Shown here: piece after piece, positions 567-6,342 of the stretch
Position numbering within the stretch: the first letter of the stretch is position 1
Layout of the letters: each line of letters starts with the position of its first letter
Assembly: GCA_017964055.1 (NCBI GenBank)
Contig: JAGCSS010000169.1
Location: 1 to 6,389, forward strand
From: Lachnospiraceae bacterium
GTDB taxonomy: Bacteria; Bacillota; Clostridia; Lachnospirales; Lachnospiraceae
Reading direction: 5' to 3'
DNA length: 6,389 nucleotides
Program-made: the position numbers and the translations under genes
The notes under the pieces: model-generated
Told to the model about the DNA's origin: nothing
Databases searched by the model: none
The model's input: the letters and a program-made list of their open reading frames with translations, nothing else

Positions 567-1277
567 ATGAGAAAGATACTTATCACAAACGATGACGGAA
601 TATATGCCGACGGGATCGTAAGACTCGCGCGGGCGGCGGTGAAATTCGGAGAGGTGTGGGTCATCGCACCCGACGGACAGAGGAGCGCGATGTCGCATTA
701 CATTACGCTGCATACGCATATCGACGCACACAAGGTACATGATTTTCCCGTTGAGGGCGTGCATGCTTATAAATCCACCGGCACACCTGCAGACTGCGTG
801 CGTTTCGGACTGCTGAACTTTGTGCAGGCGGACGCGGTGCTCACGGGCATCAATTTCGGCTACAACTGCGGGACCGACCTGCAGTATTCCGGCACGGCGG
901 GTGCGGCGTTCGAGGCAGCCGTCGAGGGCGTTCACGCGATCGCTTTTTCGGAAGGGGCGCACGGAGTGCACGAGGTCAGCGACAGATATCTGGAGCAGCT
1001 GCTCGGCGAATATCTTGAAAAGCCTCTCGAAAGGAATACGATCTGGAACATCAATTTCCCCGAATGCGCACTGGAGGATTTCAAAGGGATACTTACCGGC
1101 AGGACCGTTGCGCACGGCGGATATTACAGGGATTCGTACCCCTATGAGACACTTCCGGACGGCGGCATCCGCATGACCATACACGGCGAAAAGGAAGTAC
1201 GGGCGCAGGAGGGCTCCGACTATCGGGCATGCGTCGAGAATTATATTTCCGTAGGTGTTGTGAGGAATCTCGGATAA
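567..1277 (+). CDS. surE: 5'/3'-nucleotidase SurE
   Basis: The 236-residue product opens with the SurE signature ITNDDG (residues 6-11). D9 and D10, S40 in the APDGQRSAMSH loop and N96 in TGIN match the positions that bind the divalent metal in known SurE structures. GTPADC (72-77) and YSGTAGAA (107-114) are further family blocks. The C-terminus carries DYRACVENYISVGVV, typical of the family. Its length is near the usual 240-260 residues. SurE enzymes are cytosolic metal-dependent phosphatases that remove phosphate from 5'- and 3'-nucleoside monophosphates; some also attack short polyphosphate. An AAAGGA site (551-556) inside the end of the upstream gene precedes the ATG by about 10 nt. The gene is followed by an AT-rich gap, so it probably closes a two-gene operon. 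All key residues are present. Confidence 0.97.
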   Translation: MRKILITNDDGIYADGIVRLARAAVKFGEVWVIAPDGQRSAMSHYITLHTHIDAHKVHDFPVEGVHAYKSTGTPADCVRFGLLNFVQADAVLTGINFGYNCGTDLQYSGTAGAAFEAAVEGVHAIAFSEGAHGVHEVSDRYLEQLLGEYLEKPLERNTIWNINFPECALEDFKGILTGRTVAHGGYYRDSYPYETLPDGGIRMTIHGEKEVRAQEGSDYRACVENYISVGVVRNLG

Positions 1278-1402: not shown

Positions 1403-2530
1403 ATGAGGAAGTACAGACTAAGAGTCGGTCTTGATGTGGATGATGTCCTCTACGAGTGTAATTCCTATGCGCTGCAGATACTCAGCGAAAGGTACCCGGA
1501 TGAGGAACCCATGAGCATAAACGAGATAAAGGGATGGGGAGAGTTCGGACGCCATCCGAAGGAGAGGATAGCGCTGTTCTCGGATCCCGAGTTCGTGCGC
1601 ACGCAGCCGATAGTGCAGGGAGCGCAGCGCTTTGTGAGCGAGCTCTCGAAGATCGCGGACGTGTTCTTTGTTACGGCGGTGCCCGTTGTGTGCATGAGCG
1701 CGAGAGGCGAGCGCCTGCTGCAGGATTTCCCTGAGATCCCCGCGCAGAACATCATCATAGGCACGAGAAAGGACGTTATGTCCCTCGATATCCTGCTCGA
1801 TGACGGAGCGCACAACATATCGAGCTCGAAGGCCACATATCCGGTGCTGATGCGCAAGCCCTGGAACATGGATATGACAGGCATTTTGGCGGTCAACACA
1901 TACAGCGATTTCCTTCAGCTGTGCAAGATGATCAGGAACTCTTTCAACGAAAAGATAAACGATGTGAGCAGCGGCGGAGTGATCTGTCTCGTCGGACCTT
2001 CTGGTTCACTGAAGAATGAGATCGCGAACGAACTCTCGAAGAACTATAAGAAATACGAAAAACCCATTACCTCGACTACGCGTCCGAGGCGCGGCAACGA
2101 GTCCGACAATGCCTACAGGTTCATTTCCGAGGACCAGTTCGTCGAGGAAAAGGACGCGGGCAAATACATCGAGAGCACGGTTTATTCCCGCTATCATTTC
2201 GGCACCTCGATCGAGGAGATCGAGCCCATCACCGCGAGAGGGAATTACGCGATAATACCCATCGACGTGTGCGGCGCGCTCACGATCAAGAACCAGTTCA
2301 GGAAAAACTCACTGCTCGTCTTCGTTAACAGGGACAAGAAAGCAGTGGTAAAGGATATCGTGGAACGCGACATAGACGCGGACGACAAGGTTCGCCGCAT
2401 AATGTCCCTCGATTTCGAGTACAGGAACGCCGAGGTCTGTGATATAGAGCTAAAAGTGGGCGATGACGCGAAGGAAGCCGCGAAACAGCTCGCACAGATG
2501 ATAGAGACGAAATACACTCACACCAAATAA
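1403..2530 (+). CDS. Fusion: NT5C-type 5'(3')-nucleotidase (HAD) + guanylate-kinase-like domain with degenerate P-loop
   Basis: This 375-residue protein has two domains. Residues about 5-178 are a HAD hydrolase of the NT5C 5'(3')-deoxyribonucleotidase type: nucleophile motif GLDVDDVL (D11 nucleophile, D13 acid), motif II FVTA (T91), a basic residue near K123, motif IV LLDDGAHN (D133/D134), then PVLMRKPWN. Residues about 192-368 resemble guanylate kinase: STTRPRRGNE (224-233), YRF (238-240), E257, YHFGTS (264-269) and IDVCGA (287-292) correspond to GMP-binding blocks. However, the Walker A loop reads GPSGSLKN (198-205), with Leu replacing Gly before the Lys and Asn replacing the Ser/Thr, so ATP binding and kinase activity are doubtful. 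Family knowledge says the first domain dephosphorylates (d)NMPs; a GMP-sensing role for the second is inference. GGAAGG at 1385-1390 is 12 nt before the ATG. It leads the tightly packed nucleotide-related genes. Confidence 0.9.
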   Translation: MRKYRLRVGLDVDDVLYECNSYALQILSERYPDEEPMSINEIKGWGEFGRHPKERIALFSDPEFVRTQPIVQGAQRFVSELSKIADVFFVTAVPVVCMSARGERLLQDFPEIPAQNIIIGTRKDVMSLDILLDDGAHNISSSKATYPVLMRKPWNMDMTGILAVNTYSDFLQLCKMIRNSFNEKINDVSSGGVICLVGPSGSLKNEIANELSKNYKKYEKPITSTTRPRRGNESDNAYRFISEDQFVEEKDAGKYIESTVYSRYHFGTSIEEIEPITARGNYAIIPIDVCGALTIKNQFRKNSLLVFVNRDKKAVVKDIVERDIDADDKVRRIMSLDFEYRNAEVCDIELKVGDDAKEAAKQLAQMIETKYTHTK

Positions 2531-2539
2531 TTACGCCAT

Positions 2540-3472
2540 ATGTTTGAAAAACTTCTTGAAGATATCAGAAAATACGACAGGATCGTGATCCACCGCCATA
2601 AAAACCCGGACGGAGACGCTCTCGGCAGCCAGATAGGCCTGAAAAACCTGATCCTTGACAATTTCCCCGGGAAAACGGTCATGACGGTCGGGGATGAGGC
2701 CGGACGCTACGCGTTCATGGAGCAGTCCGCGATGGATACAGTCCCGGATGAGTTTTACGAGGGTGCGCTGGCCATCGTGCTCGATACATCGGGAGCGGAA
2801 CTCATCAGCGACGACAGGTACAAAACGGCGGCAAAGTCTTTCAGGGTGGATCACCATCTGTTCCTTGAGAAAATCTGTGATGACGAGATCCAGGACTCTT
2901 CATTTGAGAGCTGCTGCGGCATGATAGCGCTCTTTGCAAAGGAGTCGGGGCTCGCTCTCTCAAAGCTTTCCGCGACTTCGCTCTATACAGGCATGGTCAC
3001 GGATTCGGGCCGTTTCAGATATGATTCGACAAATTCCCGTACGTTTGAGACCGCGTCATTCCTGCTTTCGGCAGGGATCGATACGAATAAGCTTTTCGGC
3101 GATCTGTATGCCGAGGACTTCGAAGCGGTAAAGCGCAGGGCGCTCTTTGTGATGAAGATCCGCTTCACCGAACACAATTGTGCATATATATACAATACCG
3201 CAGCGGAGGTAGCTGAGCTCGGCATGAGCACCTTCAGCGTGTCGCGCGGTATGGTCGGAGTGATGGGAGACATAAAGGGAGTCGACATCTGGGTCAACTT
3301 CACCGAAGCGCCCGAGGGCGTGCTCTGTGAGATCCGGTCCTCGAAGTACAACATCAATCCGATCGCGGTAAAATACGGCGGAGGCGGCCACGAAAAGGCC
3401 AGCGGAGCCACGGTGGCAGACAAAGAGACCGCGATGCTGATGCTGAAGGACCTGGACGCGATGCTTGCATGA
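2540..3472 (+). CDS. DHH/DHHA1 phosphoesterase, NrnA-like (first of tandem pair)
   Basis: The 310-residue product matches bifunctional oligoribonuclease/pAp phosphatase NrnA in length and motifs. The DHH domain (about 1-190) has HKNPDGDALGS (H20, D24, D26), VLDTS (D82), VDHH (D104-H106) and TGMVTDSGRFRY (D155), the residues that hold two catalytic metals. The DHHA1 domain (about 225-305) ends with GGGGHEKASGA (280-290), the substrate-binding loop. NrnA enzymes are cytosolic; they clear 2-5-nt RNA fragments and convert pAp to AMP, and some relatives cleave linear or cyclic dinucleotides. The start follows the upstream stop by 9 nt, in the same frame, and has no recognisable SD sequence, suggesting translational coupling. 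Its residues after DHH (LFLE) differ from the downstream paralogue, so the substrates may differ. Family certain; precise substrate not. Confidence 0.95.
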   Translation: MFEKLLEDIRKYDRIVIHRHKNPDGDALGSQIGLKNLILDNFPGKTVMTVGDEAGRYAFMEQSAMDTVPDEFYEGALAIVLDTSGAELISDDRYKTAAKSFRVDHHLFLEKICDDEIQDSSFESCCGMIALFAKESGLALSKLSATSLYTGMVTDSGRFRYDSTNSRTFETASFLLSAGIDTNKLFGDLYAEDFEAVKRRALFVMKIRFTEHNCAYIYNTAAEVAELGMSTFSVSRGMVGVMGDIKGVDIWVNFTEAPEGVLCEIRSSKYNINPIAVKYGGGGHEKASGATVADKETAMLMLKDLDAMLA

Positions 3473-3528
3473 TGACGGGCCGGGACTGGATCTGCGGATA
3501 CGGAAGGAATTATTTACGAACTGTATGA
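3469..3528 (+). CDS. Possible 19-codon coupling mini-ORF between the nrnA-like genes
   Basis: An ATG at 3469 overlaps the stop of the upstream gene as ATGA (3469-3472). The frame stays open for 19 codons (starting MMTGRDWICGYGRN) and stops with TGA at 3526-3528, overlapping the downstream ATG at 3525 as a second ATGA. It has no SD of its own. It may act as a stop-start relay carrying ribosomes across the gap rather than encoding a functional peptide. Chance cannot be excluded. Confidence 0.3.
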   Translation: MMTGRDWICGYGRNYLRTV

Positions 3529-4499
3529 ATGAAGAGACAAAACAGCTTATTTTTGATAAAATAAAAGCATATGACAGGGTGATCGTTTCGAGACATATCC
3601 GTCCGGACGGCGACGCTGTCGGTTCGACCATGGGTTTTGCGCATATTATCAGGGATTCTTTCCCCGGTAAAGAGGTGCTTGTCGCCTGCGAGGATTATAC
3701 GGATTACGTTTCGTTCCTCGGCAGGGAGGACGGCGCGGTCCCCGAGGACAAATACAAGGACGCGCTGCTCGTGGTGCTCGATACCGCGGTGCTCGACCGC
3801 ATCTCGAACAACAACGCCTCACTCGCGAAGGAGATCATAAAGATCGACCATCATGTGGACATCGCTCCCTACGGCGATATCTCGTGGGTGGAGGATTTCA
3901 GGTCGTCCGTATGCGAGATGGTCGTTGATTTCTACCTGACATTTAAGGATGAGCTGACGCTCTCGAAGGATGCGGCGCTCTGCCTGTTCACCGGCATGGT
4001 GACGGACTCCGGGCGTTTCCGCTATGTCGAGACTACCGGCGATACCTTAAGGCTCGCGGCGGTACTGCTCGATGCCGGCATCGATACCGAGACGCTCTAT
4101 GCGAGACTATATCTCGAGGAGTTCGACGAGATCAGGTTCAGATCGTACGTCTACGACAATATGAAGACCACCGAGAACGGCGTTGCCTACATCTATGTTG
4201 ACGAGGCGATGCAGCAGAGGTTCTCGCTCACGCGTGAGCAGGCGAGCAATACCGTGGGACTGCTCGGCGAGATCAAGGGCAGCATCATCTGGCTCGCGTT
4301 CATCGACTACGAGGGCACGATCAGGGTCAGACTGCGCAGCAGATTCGTTGAGATCAACAAGCTCGCGGAGAAGTATCACGGCGGCGGACATGTCTGCGCG
4401 AGCGGCGCTACGGTTTACAGCCGTGAGGAGATGGAGGCGCTCTTAAAGGACGCCGACGACCTGATCAAAGATTACAAGGCAAATCATTTTTACCTATAG
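3525..4499 (+). CDS. DHH/DHHA1 phosphoesterase, NrnA-like (second of tandem pair)
   Basis: This 324-residue paralogue of the preceding gene keeps every catalytic motif: SRHIRPDGDAVGS (H24, D28, D30), VLDTA (D86), IDHH (D108-H110), TGMVTDSGRFRY (D161) and the C-terminal GGGHVCASGA (286-295). It should therefore be an active two-metal phosphoesterase on short oligonucleotides, pAp or linear dinucleotides. It differs in HGGGHVC against GGGGHEK in the substrate loop and in a longer C-terminal tail (DYKANHFYL). The ATG at 3525 lines the protein up with its paralogue and with NrnA proteins. A GGAAGGA at 3502-3508 is 16 nt upstream, unusually far. An in-frame TTG at 3465 would add 20 residues without homology and lacks an SD, so I rejected it. 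The stop overlaps the ribosome binding site of the next gene. Confidence 0.94.
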   Translation: MNEETKQLIFDKIKAYDRVIVSRHIRPDGDAVGSTMGFAHIIRDSFPGKEVLVACEDYTDYVSFLGREDGAVPEDKYKDALLVVLDTAVLDRISNNNASLAKEIIKIDHHVDIAPYGDISWVEDFRSSVCEMVVDFYLTFKDELTLSKDAALCLFTGMVTDSGRFRYVETTGDTLRLAAVLLDAGIDTETLYARLYLEEFDEIRFRSYVYDNMKTTENGVAYIYVDEAMQQRFSLTREQASNTVGLLGEIKGSIIWLAFIDYEGTIRVRLRSRFVEINKLAEKYHGGGHVCASGATVYSREEMEALLKDADDLIKDYKANHFYL

Positions 4500-4507
4500 A
4501 GGGGTTT

Positions 4508-5251
4508 ATGTTTTTTGATACGCAAAAGGCGGGCATGGCCAAACGCATTTCAGCGTGGCTGCTCGATATCATACTGCTCGCGGTCGCGGCGACCGGCTTC
4601 GCCGTAGTAGTTTCGATGGCTGTCGGATTCGATAAGACTTCGGACAGACTTGAAGCCTATTACGACTATTATGAGAGCGAATACGGGATCAATCTCGGCA
4701 TAACGGAGGAGGAGAGCGCGGCGCTCACGCCCGAGGAGGAGGCAAAGTATTACAAAGCCTTCGAGGTGATGGACGCAGACGAGGGCCTTATAAAGACCTA
4801 CAGGCTGACGGTCAATCTGTCGCTCGTGATCCTCTCCCTGGCCATCTTGCTGGCATATTTACTGACGGAGTTCGCGGTCCCGCTGTTTTTCGGAAACGGC
4901 CAGACGATCGGTAAAAAGATATTCGGCCTGTGCCTGATGCAGAAGGACCAGACGAAGCTCAAACCGCTGGCGCTCGCTGTCAGGACCCTGCTCGGCAAAT
5001 ATGCGGTCGAGACCATGATACCGGCGCTGATGATGGTCATGCTGCTCGGCGGCATGATTGGGAGCACGGCGACGATGGCCATAGGACTGCTGCTGGCGAT
5101 CCAGATACTGGTCATGTACAGATCGCCCGTGAACGCGGCCATACATGATGTGTTTGCGGCCACTGTGGTCGTGGATATGAAGAGCCAGAAGATATTTGAT
5201 GATCTGAAAGCAAAAGAGGAATACAAAATAAGAATGGAGAAGGGCTTATGA
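4508..5251 (+). CDS. RDD family integral membrane protein
   Basis: The 247-residue protein fits the RDD family. The first helix carries the namesake Arg and Asp in AKRISAWLLDIILLAV (R13, D20), followed by a hydrophobic run to about 39. Residues 40-98 form an acidic, Tyr-rich loop (DRLEAYYDYYESEYG, EEESAALTPEEEAKYY). A second helix lies at about 102-123. The conserved GNGQTIGKKIFGL (129-141) follows, then hydrophobic stretches at about 171-202, and finally NAAIHDVFAATVVVD, the family's late His-Asp segment. A charged tail ends the protein. RDD proteins have no single agreed function; some have been proposed as ion antiporters or transport partners. AGAGGGG (4498-4504) overlaps the upstream stop and sits close to the ATG. 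The gene overlaps the ABC ATPase gene by 4 nt, so the two are translationally coupled, hinting at a shared role. Confidence 0.9.
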   Translation: MFFDTQKAGMAKRISAWLLDIILLAVAATGFAVVVSMAVGFDKTSDRLEAYYDYYESEYGINLGITEEESAALTPEEEAKYYKAFEVMDADEGLIKTYRLTVNLSLVILSLAILLAYLLTEFAVPLFFGNGQTIGKKIFGLCLMQKDQTKLKPLALAVRTLLGKYAVETMIPALMMVMLLGGMIGSTATMAIGLLLAIQILVMYRSPVNAAIHDVFAATVVVDMKSQKIFDDLKAKEEYKIRMEKGL

Positions 5252-6342
5252 AAGTAGTACTCGAACATGTCACAAAACGTTTCCCGAACAGGGACAAGAA
5301 GATCAAGACCGAAGTGACCGCCGTAAACGATATCTCGTTTGAGATACCGGACGGAAAACTGATCGGTCTGCTCGGACCTTCCGGCTGCGGAAAGAGCACT
5401 ACGCTCTATATGATCTGCGGTCTGCAGAAGCTCACCGAGGGCAGGATCTATTTCGGAGAAGAGGACGTATCCGATCTTTCTCCCGAGAACAGAGGCGTAG
5501 GCCTGGTATTCCAGAACTACGCGCTTTATCCGCATATGACGGTAAAGCAGAACATCATGTTCCCTCTCGAGAACCTTAAAGGGGATGACAAACTCACAAA
5601 GGACGAGATGCTCGAGCGCACCTATAAGGTAGCGAAGCTCGTGCAGATAGACGAGCTCCTTGAGAGAAAACCCAGCGAGCTTTCGGGCGGACAGCAGCAG
5701 CGTGTGGCTATCGCGCGCGCTCTGGTCAAGATGCCGAGAGTCCTCCTGCTCGACGAGCCTTTATCGAACCTCGATGCGAGACTCCGCCTGCAGACACGTG
5801 AGGAGATCCGCCGCATTCAGCGCGAAACCAACATCACGACCGTATTCGTAACCCACGACCAGGAAGAGGCGATGAGCATCTCCGACCAGATCGTAGTTAT
5901 GAAGCTCGGCGTTGTGCAGCAGATGGGCGTTCCGCAGGAGGTATACAATAACCCCGCAAACCTCTTTGTCGCCAAGTTCCTCGGCACACCTCCCGTTAAC
6001 GTATTCAGGGGCGAGGTTAAAGGCGGCGCGCTCTATATCGCGGACGAGAGGATCTGCGATACACCCGGTATTTCCGACAGGGCCGTTTACGTGGGCATCC
6101 GTCCGGAGGGCTTTATCTACAGCCCGAACGGCGTGCTTACCTGCGACTTCCAGAACGTTGAAGTCATGGGAGGCGCGATCAGCATCGTTTCCTCGCATAA
6201 GGAATCGGAAAATGCGATCATCCGCGCGACCGTGATGGATGATGTTAAGATACCCGAAGGTGCCGCAACGGTTAAGTTCGATATCAAGCCCAACAAGCTT
6301 TACGTATTTGACCGTGAAACGGAAGAGAGACTTTATTTCTGA
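5248..6342 (+). CDS. ABC transporter ATP-binding protein, MsmX/UgpC/MalK type
   Basis: The 364-residue protein has a complete ABC ATPase core: Walker [10 protein letters not shown] (43-51), Q-loop [13 protein letters not shown] (Q89), signature [15 protein letters not shown] (145-159), Walker B VLLLDEP (165-171), D-loop SNLD (173-176) and switch His in [11 protein letters not shown] (H203). A C-terminal extension (about 240-364) with VGIRPEG (282-288) corresponds to the OB/TOBE regulatory domain of carbohydrate importers such as MalK, UgpC and MsmX. It would power uptake of sugars or glycerol phosphates with two permeases and a lipoprotein binder. The specific substrate cannot be read from an ATPase, and MsmX types can serve several importers. 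GAGAAGGG lies just upstream, and the ATG overlaps the RDD stop as ATGA. Another gene begins 12 nt after its stop. Confidence 0.96.

Follow-up and report, generated by a model that had tools for sequence, protein, structure and literature searches.

A predicted 5'(3')-nucleotidase with a fused guanylate-kinase-like domain, probably no longer a kinase, in a likely nucleic-acid-scavenging locus of gut Clostridia

The 6,389-nucleotide stretch of Lachnospiraceae DNA analysed here (contig JAGCSS010000169.1, hereafter the window) contains a gene in which an NT5C-type nucleotidase domain is followed by a guanylate-kinase (GK)-like domain. This order of domains in one chain marks a clostridial family and is not a local accident. 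The interpretation that we favour, with a confidence just short of even, is that the NT5C half is a predicted active 5'(3')-nucleotidase, that the fused GK half has likely lost GMP-kinase activity (GMP, guanosine monophosphate) and is predicted to act as a GMP-binding modulator of the phosphatase, and that the gene belongs to a likely nucleic-acid-scavenging locus. Because the phosphatase residues are intact while the GK half is eroded family-wide, catalysis probably resides in the nucleotidase, and the GK half likely serves as a non-catalytic nucleotide-binding module. A more specific version is possible but rather doubtful: the pseudo-guanylate-kinase would be a built-in GMP gauge setting the rate of nucleotide stripping, and a Lachnospiraceae sister branch would have been re-tuned to another ligand through loss of the GMP-phosphate loop, its P-loop being retained. 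The features of the gene are as follows.

1403..2530, + strand: NT5C-GK fusion gene, an open reading frame (ORF) of 375 amino acids without internal stop
1424..1924, + strand: NT5C (HAD 5'(3')-nucleotidase) domain, residues 8-174, with D11, D13, T91, K123, D133 and D134
1982..2509, + strand: guanylate-kinase-like domain, residues 194-369
1994..2017, + strand: altered Walker A sequence GPSGSLKN, residues 198-205, with the Lys kept and the Gly before it replaced
2258..2260, + strand: codon of P286, a Pro at the position of the Walker-B-like Glu/Asp of Gmk-type proteins

NT5C (PF06941; 62.5 bits over residues 8-174, cut-off 24.8) and Guanylate_kin (70.5 bits over residues 194-369, cut-off 25.2) were the only Pfam families above cut-off in the protein, which bears out the original prediction, made from the DNA letters, that one ORF joins the two domains. 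Against the Gmk model TIGR03263 the protein scored 84.2 bits, under the cut-off of 160.45. The HAD residues listed in that prediction (D11, D13, T91, D133 and D134) and its GMP-pocket blocks (STTRPRR, E257, YHFGTS and IDVCGA) were all present in the protein; a further HAD residue, K123, likely the motif-III lysine, had been overlooked. The Walker A sequence does read GPSGSLKN, but calling it broken overstated the change, since G198, G201 and K204 are intact and the change is confined to the two residues that flank the Lys, Gly before it and Ser/Thr after it in the intact motif.

A protein search returned 1005 matches at E 1e-3 or better, and all of the best 120 of these had both domains in a single chain. 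Contigs from 84,980 species genomes were scanned, and 187 coding stretches resembled the fusion. The best 80 of the 187, which are the loci used for the neighbour counts, carried the titles Lachnospiraceae, Clostridia, Clostridiales, Eubacteriales or Ruminococcus, and many of them came from rumen, rabbit, horse or other animal guts. Of 391 genomes sampled evenly from the class, four (the window's own included) had a close full-length match and G313 had a distant one, also of full length; in the 32 other matching genomes the match covered the GK part only. Searching with the distant relative L139 gave 489 matches, some of which may be proteins of the window's branch, and both domains were present in 116 of the 120 listed according to a precomputed domain column. 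We refer to the window's branch as branch A and to the listed relatives of L139 as branch B. One branch-B match is a Blautia protein carrying the source name 'guanylate kinase'. The same source name is borne by the branch-B fusions P0200, P0220, P0242, P0247, P0250, P0261 and P0266 (Lachnospiraceae, Blautia), which have the NT5C half and no GMP-phosphate loop, and it is probably a misannotation.

The gene was also considered as a phage gene, and this was rejected. Viral contigs gave three loci, matching the NT5C half only, and a scan of them with a branch-B protein gave no match. A phage collection gave 22 records, only one of which, an unverified 4.2 kb 'Bacteriophage sp.' scaffold, covered more than 80% of the query; this scaffold is probably bacterial DNA, because a GntR-type regulator and an L-arabinose isomerase gene are also on it. 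A plasmid search returned no record covering 80% of the query.

Conservation of active-site residues was assessed in a 210-row alignment of non-identical best-listed homologues and fetched loci, a part of the 1005 matches; nearly all rows are branch A, and the branch-B-like L090 is among them. GK positions were set by alignment to 1gky and by family alignments and follow the yeast numbering; the roles of K14, R38, R41, Y50, E69, S80, D98, D100, R131, R135 and R146 are those known from Gmk enzymology. The 42 Gmk-type rows used for comparison came from the genome searches and were not de-duplicated. The HAD set D11, D13, T91, K123, D133 and D134 was kept in 209-210 of the 210 rows. Equivalents of the GMP-pocket residues were likewise kept (R38 in 208, R41 in 180, Y50 in 209, E69 in 209, S/T80 in 202 and D100 in 210), and the window protein has all six. 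The Walker-B-like acid (D98 position, P286), in contrast to the E/D found in 42/42 Gmk-type rows, was Pro in 210/210 fusions. The R131 position was Asp, Ser or Asn in 207 and Arg in one, as against Arg in 41 of the 42 Gmk-type rows and a gap in the other. The Gly before the P-loop Lys (Gly13) was kept in only 13 rows and absent in 197, and a textbook GxGKT loop occurred in 10. The hinge position 224 was Ser in 178 rows and Thr in 29. Over 69 branch-A representatives, 46 GK-half positions were at least 97% conserved, including GMP-pocket and phosphate-binding residues. The P-loop Lys (210/210) and the equivalents of R146 (209/210) and R135 (200/210) were also kept, and because of this the earlier suggestion of a domain that binds GMP without ATP does not follow.

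A GK-half tree was built with the variable columns of the P-loop masked and with Gmks as its root. In it the fusions formed one group (SH-aLRT 99), within which the deepest forks were unresolved. A GxGK loop is found in ten rows, as GTGKT in eight, and all ten fell outside a clade of 58 representatives (SH-aLRT 99) that contains the window and in which all but one lack the Gly before the Lys. This placement of the intact-loop rows in sister lineages argues that the odd P-loop is an old, clade-wide state and not a local mutation, and that the intact loop is likely ancestral. The original prediction took homologues with an intact loop to imply a local mutation in this DNA; such relatives do exist (10/210), but they stand in sister lineages and the loss is that of a whole clade.

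The sampled branch-B proteins are damaged at the opposite side of the active site. Its alignment comprised 115 rows (114 of the 120 listed proteins plus L090; six of at most 330 amino acids were dropped). The P-loop reads GxGK in 114 of these and keeps the Lys in all 115, and the loop bearing R41 and E44, the GMP-phosphate loop, is absent in 115/115. R38 is replaced by Lys or Glu in 109 and Y50 by His in all 115. The Walker-B-like acid is gone here too (Pro in 108, Ala in four, Ser in three), and the HAD residues are kept in 114-115. In all ten representatives taken across both branches the acid was missing and the HAD set, R146 and the P-loop Lys were present; the GMP loop, E69 and the P-loop Gly varied by lineage. 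Opposite damage beside an untouched phosphatase is what would be expected if GMP-to-GDP catalysis (GDP, guanosine diphosphate) were no longer selected and some nucleotide binding still were. The family-wide Pro at the acid, the oppositely damaged sister branch and the genomic context described below are stronger evidence than the original prediction contained.

The fusion gene lies in a row of genes on the + strand, in the order SurE, fusion, NrnA1, NrnA2, RDD and ABC (ATP-binding cassette) ATPase.

567..1277, + strand: SurE-type 5'/3'-nucleotidase gene (PF01975, 170 bits; TIGR00087, 148.8 bits, cut-off 135.1)
2540..3472, + strand: NrnA-like DHH/DHHA1 phosphoesterase 1 (NrnA1), 9 nt after the fusion (NrnA model, 224.3 bits)
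3525..4499, + strand: NrnA-like DHH/DHHA1 phosphoesterase 2 (NrnA2; NrnA model, 230.7 bits)
4508..5251, + strand: RDD-family membrane protein gene, the first gene of the importer part in the window's clade
5248..6342, + strand: ABC importer ATPase gene, near the contig end at 6389

Downstream of the fusion the genes are separated by gaps of 9, 52 and 8 nt and then overlap by 4 nt; the NrnA2 ORF is listed from a TTG at 3465, and the likelier ATG at 3525 was used for these gaps. The DHH and DHHA1 domains of both NrnA-like proteins pass the Pfam cut-offs. The PDGDA, DHH and GGGH motifs of NrnA1 were found in 41/41 loci, as were the motifs of NrnA2, and a second SurE sequence pattern was matched in only 31 of the 41.

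Of the fetched loci, 35 had flanks of 5 kb or more on each side; 33 of these contained both NrnA-like genes, 28 contained SurE and 19 an SNase-type gene. Over all 80 loci, many of which are shortened by contig ends, NrnA1 was found in 73, NrnA2 in 69, SurE in 58 and the SNase-type gene in 25. At least three arrangements occur (SurE-fusion-NrnA1-NrnA2; fusion-NrnA1-NrnA2-SurE; and SurE-NrnA2-NrnA1 facing away from the fusion), and linkage kept through such rearrangement argues for a shared function. Across 41 loci the four proteins had correlated pairwise distances (0.92-0.96), a result that shared descent alone could give. G395 and G399 carry the two NrnA-like genes in addition to a distant housekeeping-type NrnA; in genomes of the genus that lack the fusion, no more than one distant NrnA-type match (24-29% identity) was found.

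The importer continues beyond the end of the window contig: permeases, a solute-binding protein and an SNase-type gene follow the ABC ATPase in L003, L005 and L008. In L005 the row runs from the ABC ATPase through two permeases (PF00528) and a solute-binding protein (PF13416) to an SNase-type gene, whose counterpart in L019 scores as PF00565. The order RDD-ABC-permease-permease-solute-binding protein-SNase-type gene was seen in both L005 and L154; in L154 it lies on another contig than the fusion. SNase-domain (PF00565) genes were searched for in 33 fusion genomes, G313 included, chosen for a fusion on a long contig or from the class sample. They were present in 28 and exactly single in 27. 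Of these 28 genomes, 21 have the gene no more than 10 kb from the fusion, G455 has it at about 13 kb and six have it on another contig; chance proximity would be about 1% per gene (20 kb in genomes of 1.4-3.4 Mb). The SNase-type N-termini, judged by eye, resemble lipoprotein signals. Several loci encode, next to the SNase-type gene, a large protein of lipoprotein-like or secreted appearance (L013:12684-15059, L020:2963-5176, L078:12216-13805 and L154:9080-11137). Those of L013 and L078 match the OB-fold nucleic-acid-binding family PF01336, and these neighbours are possibly surface nucleic-acid-binding proteins.

Enzymes of the SNase type yield products with a 3'-phosphate, those of the SurE and NT5C families are able to take off 3'- and 5'-phosphates, and NrnA both cleaves short RNAs and dephosphorylates pAp. 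On these combined activities the set reads as import and stepwise breakdown to nucleosides and phosphate, and SurE, the two extra NrnA-like genes, the SNase-type gene and the ABC importer likely form a nucleic-acid-scavenging locus. The processing of short RNAs by NrnA is reported in PMC9757072. In the mechanism that we propose, the lipoprotein-like SNase-type protein, perhaps together with other surface proteins, would cut extracellular DNA or RNA, and the ABC importer would take up the products. NrnA1 and NrnA2 would cut the oligonucleotides, or remove phosphates, to yield mononucleotides, which SurE and the NT5C half would dephosphorylate to nucleosides and phosphate. GMP, from this breakdown or from the cell's own pool, would close the GK half and change NT5C activity, and nucleic-acid degradation might thereby follow the purine-nucleotide supply.

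Several further features of these loci were recorded. An AAA_14/DUF4143 gene stands between NrnA2 and SurE in G128 (L150:10972-12129), and only two ORFs separate the distant fusion L090 from a gene for a dCache-HAMP-GGDEF protein (L149:5480-7105). An anti-phage system was rejected, PADLOC having returned nothing at E 0.01 for four cassette proteins. A riboswitch search with Rfam at gathering threshold on the window and seven loci gave only a tRNA and a piece of OLE RNA; the latter (RF01071, 81.5 bits) is the start of the RNA and lies at the edge of the locus in a metagenome-assembled genome (MAG) of a gut clostridium (L017:16989-17107). A promoter and terminator scan gave the same counts as in shuffled sequence.

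The fusion was also considered as a general replacement of the housekeeping Gmk and was rejected, since a canonical Gmk over the curated cut-off was found in 25 of the 36 fusion-bearing genome entries, or 25 of 34 distinct genomes once the duplicate pairs G399/G448 and G395/G449 are allowed for. In the window's genus, g1, none of 24 genomes, many of them incomplete MAGs, had a canonical Gmk over the TIGR03263 cut-off, and only four of the 24 had the fusion; sampled genomes of other genera in the family had such a Gmk in 13/13. The essential Gmk may have been replaced in this genus. The best GK matches there were the fusion, smaller GK-type matches or, in G397, a 154.7-bit match with an internal stop. 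The window's own genome encodes a 197-amino-acid GK-like protein (L002:1504-2097, G000:C406) with the P-loop GPSASGKD and the sequence TTRPKRGNE, a candidate replacement Gmk, and the GK-type matches of about 47-76 bits in most g1 genomes may be of the same kind. G404, G406 and G409 had no PF00625 match at E 1e-5.

A number of observations weigh against the interpretation of a ligand-sensing, non-kinase module in a scavenging locus. In the GK half, K204 and R146 are near-invariant in both branches, so phosphate binding, or even a changed kinase activity, is possible, and the ten relatives with a GxGKT loop count against lost kinase activity. R41 is kept in only 180/210, its losses falling mostly in intact-loop rows (kept in 4/11, against 52/58). 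The branch-B relatives L156, L164, L165 and L166 retain the length of the GMP loop, and L166, the most kinase-like, lacks mainly the acid, R131 and R41. In the locus, neither NrnA-like protein reaches the curated cut-off of the NrnA model (NF053633, 350 bits), and the best PDB relatives of the importer's solute-binding protein bind sugars. The residue before TPES, which in classical SNases is an Asp and presumably a metal ligand, is Asn in 14 of 20 readable SNase-type copies and Asp in six. Because of this replacement the nuclease activity of the SNase-type proteins is uncertain, and they may be either weakened nucleases or nucleases with a changed metal site. Copies with the Asn include those of L003 and L005, close relatives of the window, and of L008 and L013. 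Two of the 35 well-flanked loci (L033 and L081) have the fusion without NrnA1 and NrnA2. Conversely, G128, G256 and G361 (MAGs of 93-97% completeness) carry NrnA1-NrnA2-SurE without the fusion, and a renewed search of these three for an overlooked copy found none, giving only GK-type matches of 32-37 bits in two; the fusion is therefore dispensable to the locus. The branch-B-type genes L139, L149 and L161 sit among unrelated genes and not in such loci. This dispensability and the branch-B contexts are more in keeping with an accessory or regulatory role for the nucleotidase than with a core step.

The alternative that survives best, though we regard it as unlikely, is that both halves are enzymes, the GK half phosphorylating GMP to GDP while NT5C dephosphorylates other nucleotides, or the two activities alternating. 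The retained GMP pocket, the P-loop Lys and the R135 and R146 equivalents would suit such a protein, as would the GTGKT loop of the sister lineages, the kinase residues of L166 and a predicted structure that resembles closed, ligand-bound Gmks. The alternative has to contend with the invariant Pro at the acid, the substituted R131 position and the Gly13 missing from 197/210 rows; moreover, sampled branch B has dispensed with the GMP-phosphate loop while keeping the phosphatase, and 25/36 carriers have a canonical Gmk.

It is also unlikely that the GK half is a structural vestige that stabilises or dimerises the nucleotidase and has no important ligand. The 46 conserved branch-A positions, with pocket and phosphate-binding residues among them, speak against this, and a pure scaffold would not be expected to retain K204, R227, E257, D288 and R332. 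Different erosion of the pocket in different lineages beside constant HAD residues is nevertheless in its favour, as is the loss of both the GMP-loop residues and E69 in L090 and L167.

Less probable still is a GK half that binds another guanine or phosphate ligand, such as (p)ppGpp, a 3'-nucleotide or an oligonucleotide end, and presents it to the phosphatase or controls the phosphatase with it. Gmk has reportedly been identified as a (p)ppGpp target in a published study. The title of PDB entry 4qrh names it as one, and the SNase-type and NrnA-like neighbours suggest 3'-phosphorylated and oligomeric substrates; no sequence feature was found that would prefer these ligands to GMP. An erroneous joining of two genes in sequencing or assembly, or by frameshift, which the original prediction had also raised, is refuted by the single two-domain chain of 120/120 listed best homologues (window protein included) and by the same ORF, at 97-99% identity, in other MAGs (L003 and L004).

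If the favoured interpretation of a working nucleotidase with a GMP-binding, non-kinase partner is right, two branches that lost opposite halves of one active site beside an intact phosphatase offer a clean natural experiment on the passage from enzyme to sensor. To our knowledge, bacterial pseudokinases of nucleotide-kinase fold are little known. The analysis also places a candidate regulator in a clostridial locus that is likely for eating nucleic acids, an overlooked nutrient of the rumen and gut, and suggests that some Lachnospiraceae proteins named 'guanylate kinase', a Blautia one included, are nucleotidases.

Both folds and the type of locus are already known. Literature searches over open-licence PMC papers found no published description of an NT5C-GK protein, in agreement with the original prediction, which knew of no described system of this kind, and none of the reciprocal erosion or of the place of the family in a clostridial locus. 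The NT5C half shares the fold of the 5'(3')-deoxyribonucleotidases (human mdN/cdN; 3bwv of S. epidermidis), but identity to these structures is only 21%, and the fusion carries a C-terminal GK-like half. From bacterial Gmk (TIGR03263) the fusion differs in the Pro at the acid, the lost R131 and P-loop Gly and the attached nucleotidase. PFK-2/FBPase-2 and T4 Pnkp are kinase-phosphatase fusions, likewise single chains in which a phosphatase is combined with a kinase of P-loop fold; they belong to other families, and the kinase half of the present fusion is without conserved catalytic residues.

MAGUK GK domains are thought to have lost catalysis and to serve as binding modules. The likeness drawn to them in the original prediction holds in so far as a GK fold within a larger protein, here beside an intact phosphatase, looks like a non-kinase binding module. 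It is otherwise loose, in that the fusion has no SH3 or PDZ neighbours and keeps the P-loop Lys and D100 (210/210), and in that its hinge is Ser/Thr (207/210) and not Pro. The hinge change in MAGUK GK is Ser35 to Pro (PMC4325336). For the locus, the nearest likeness is with the Izemoplasmatales, for which PMC8289736 describes clusters of extracellular nucleases and ABC transporters for nucleic-acid degradation, and with Hujiaoplasma nucleasis, in which, according to PMC10470597, one locus holds an extracellular ribonuclease, NrnA and ABC transporters, and many genes rise with DNA or RNA. The term 'guanylate kinase' is absent from the main text of the latter paper. Compared with the loci described in the two papers, the present ones share ABC transporter genes, clustered here with the gene of a predicted secreted SNase-type protein of uncertain nuclease activity, and with H. 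nucleasis they also share NrnA-like genes, but they come instead from gut Clostridia MAGs and combine paired NrnA-like paralogues, SurE, an SNase-type gene and the NT5C-GK fusion.
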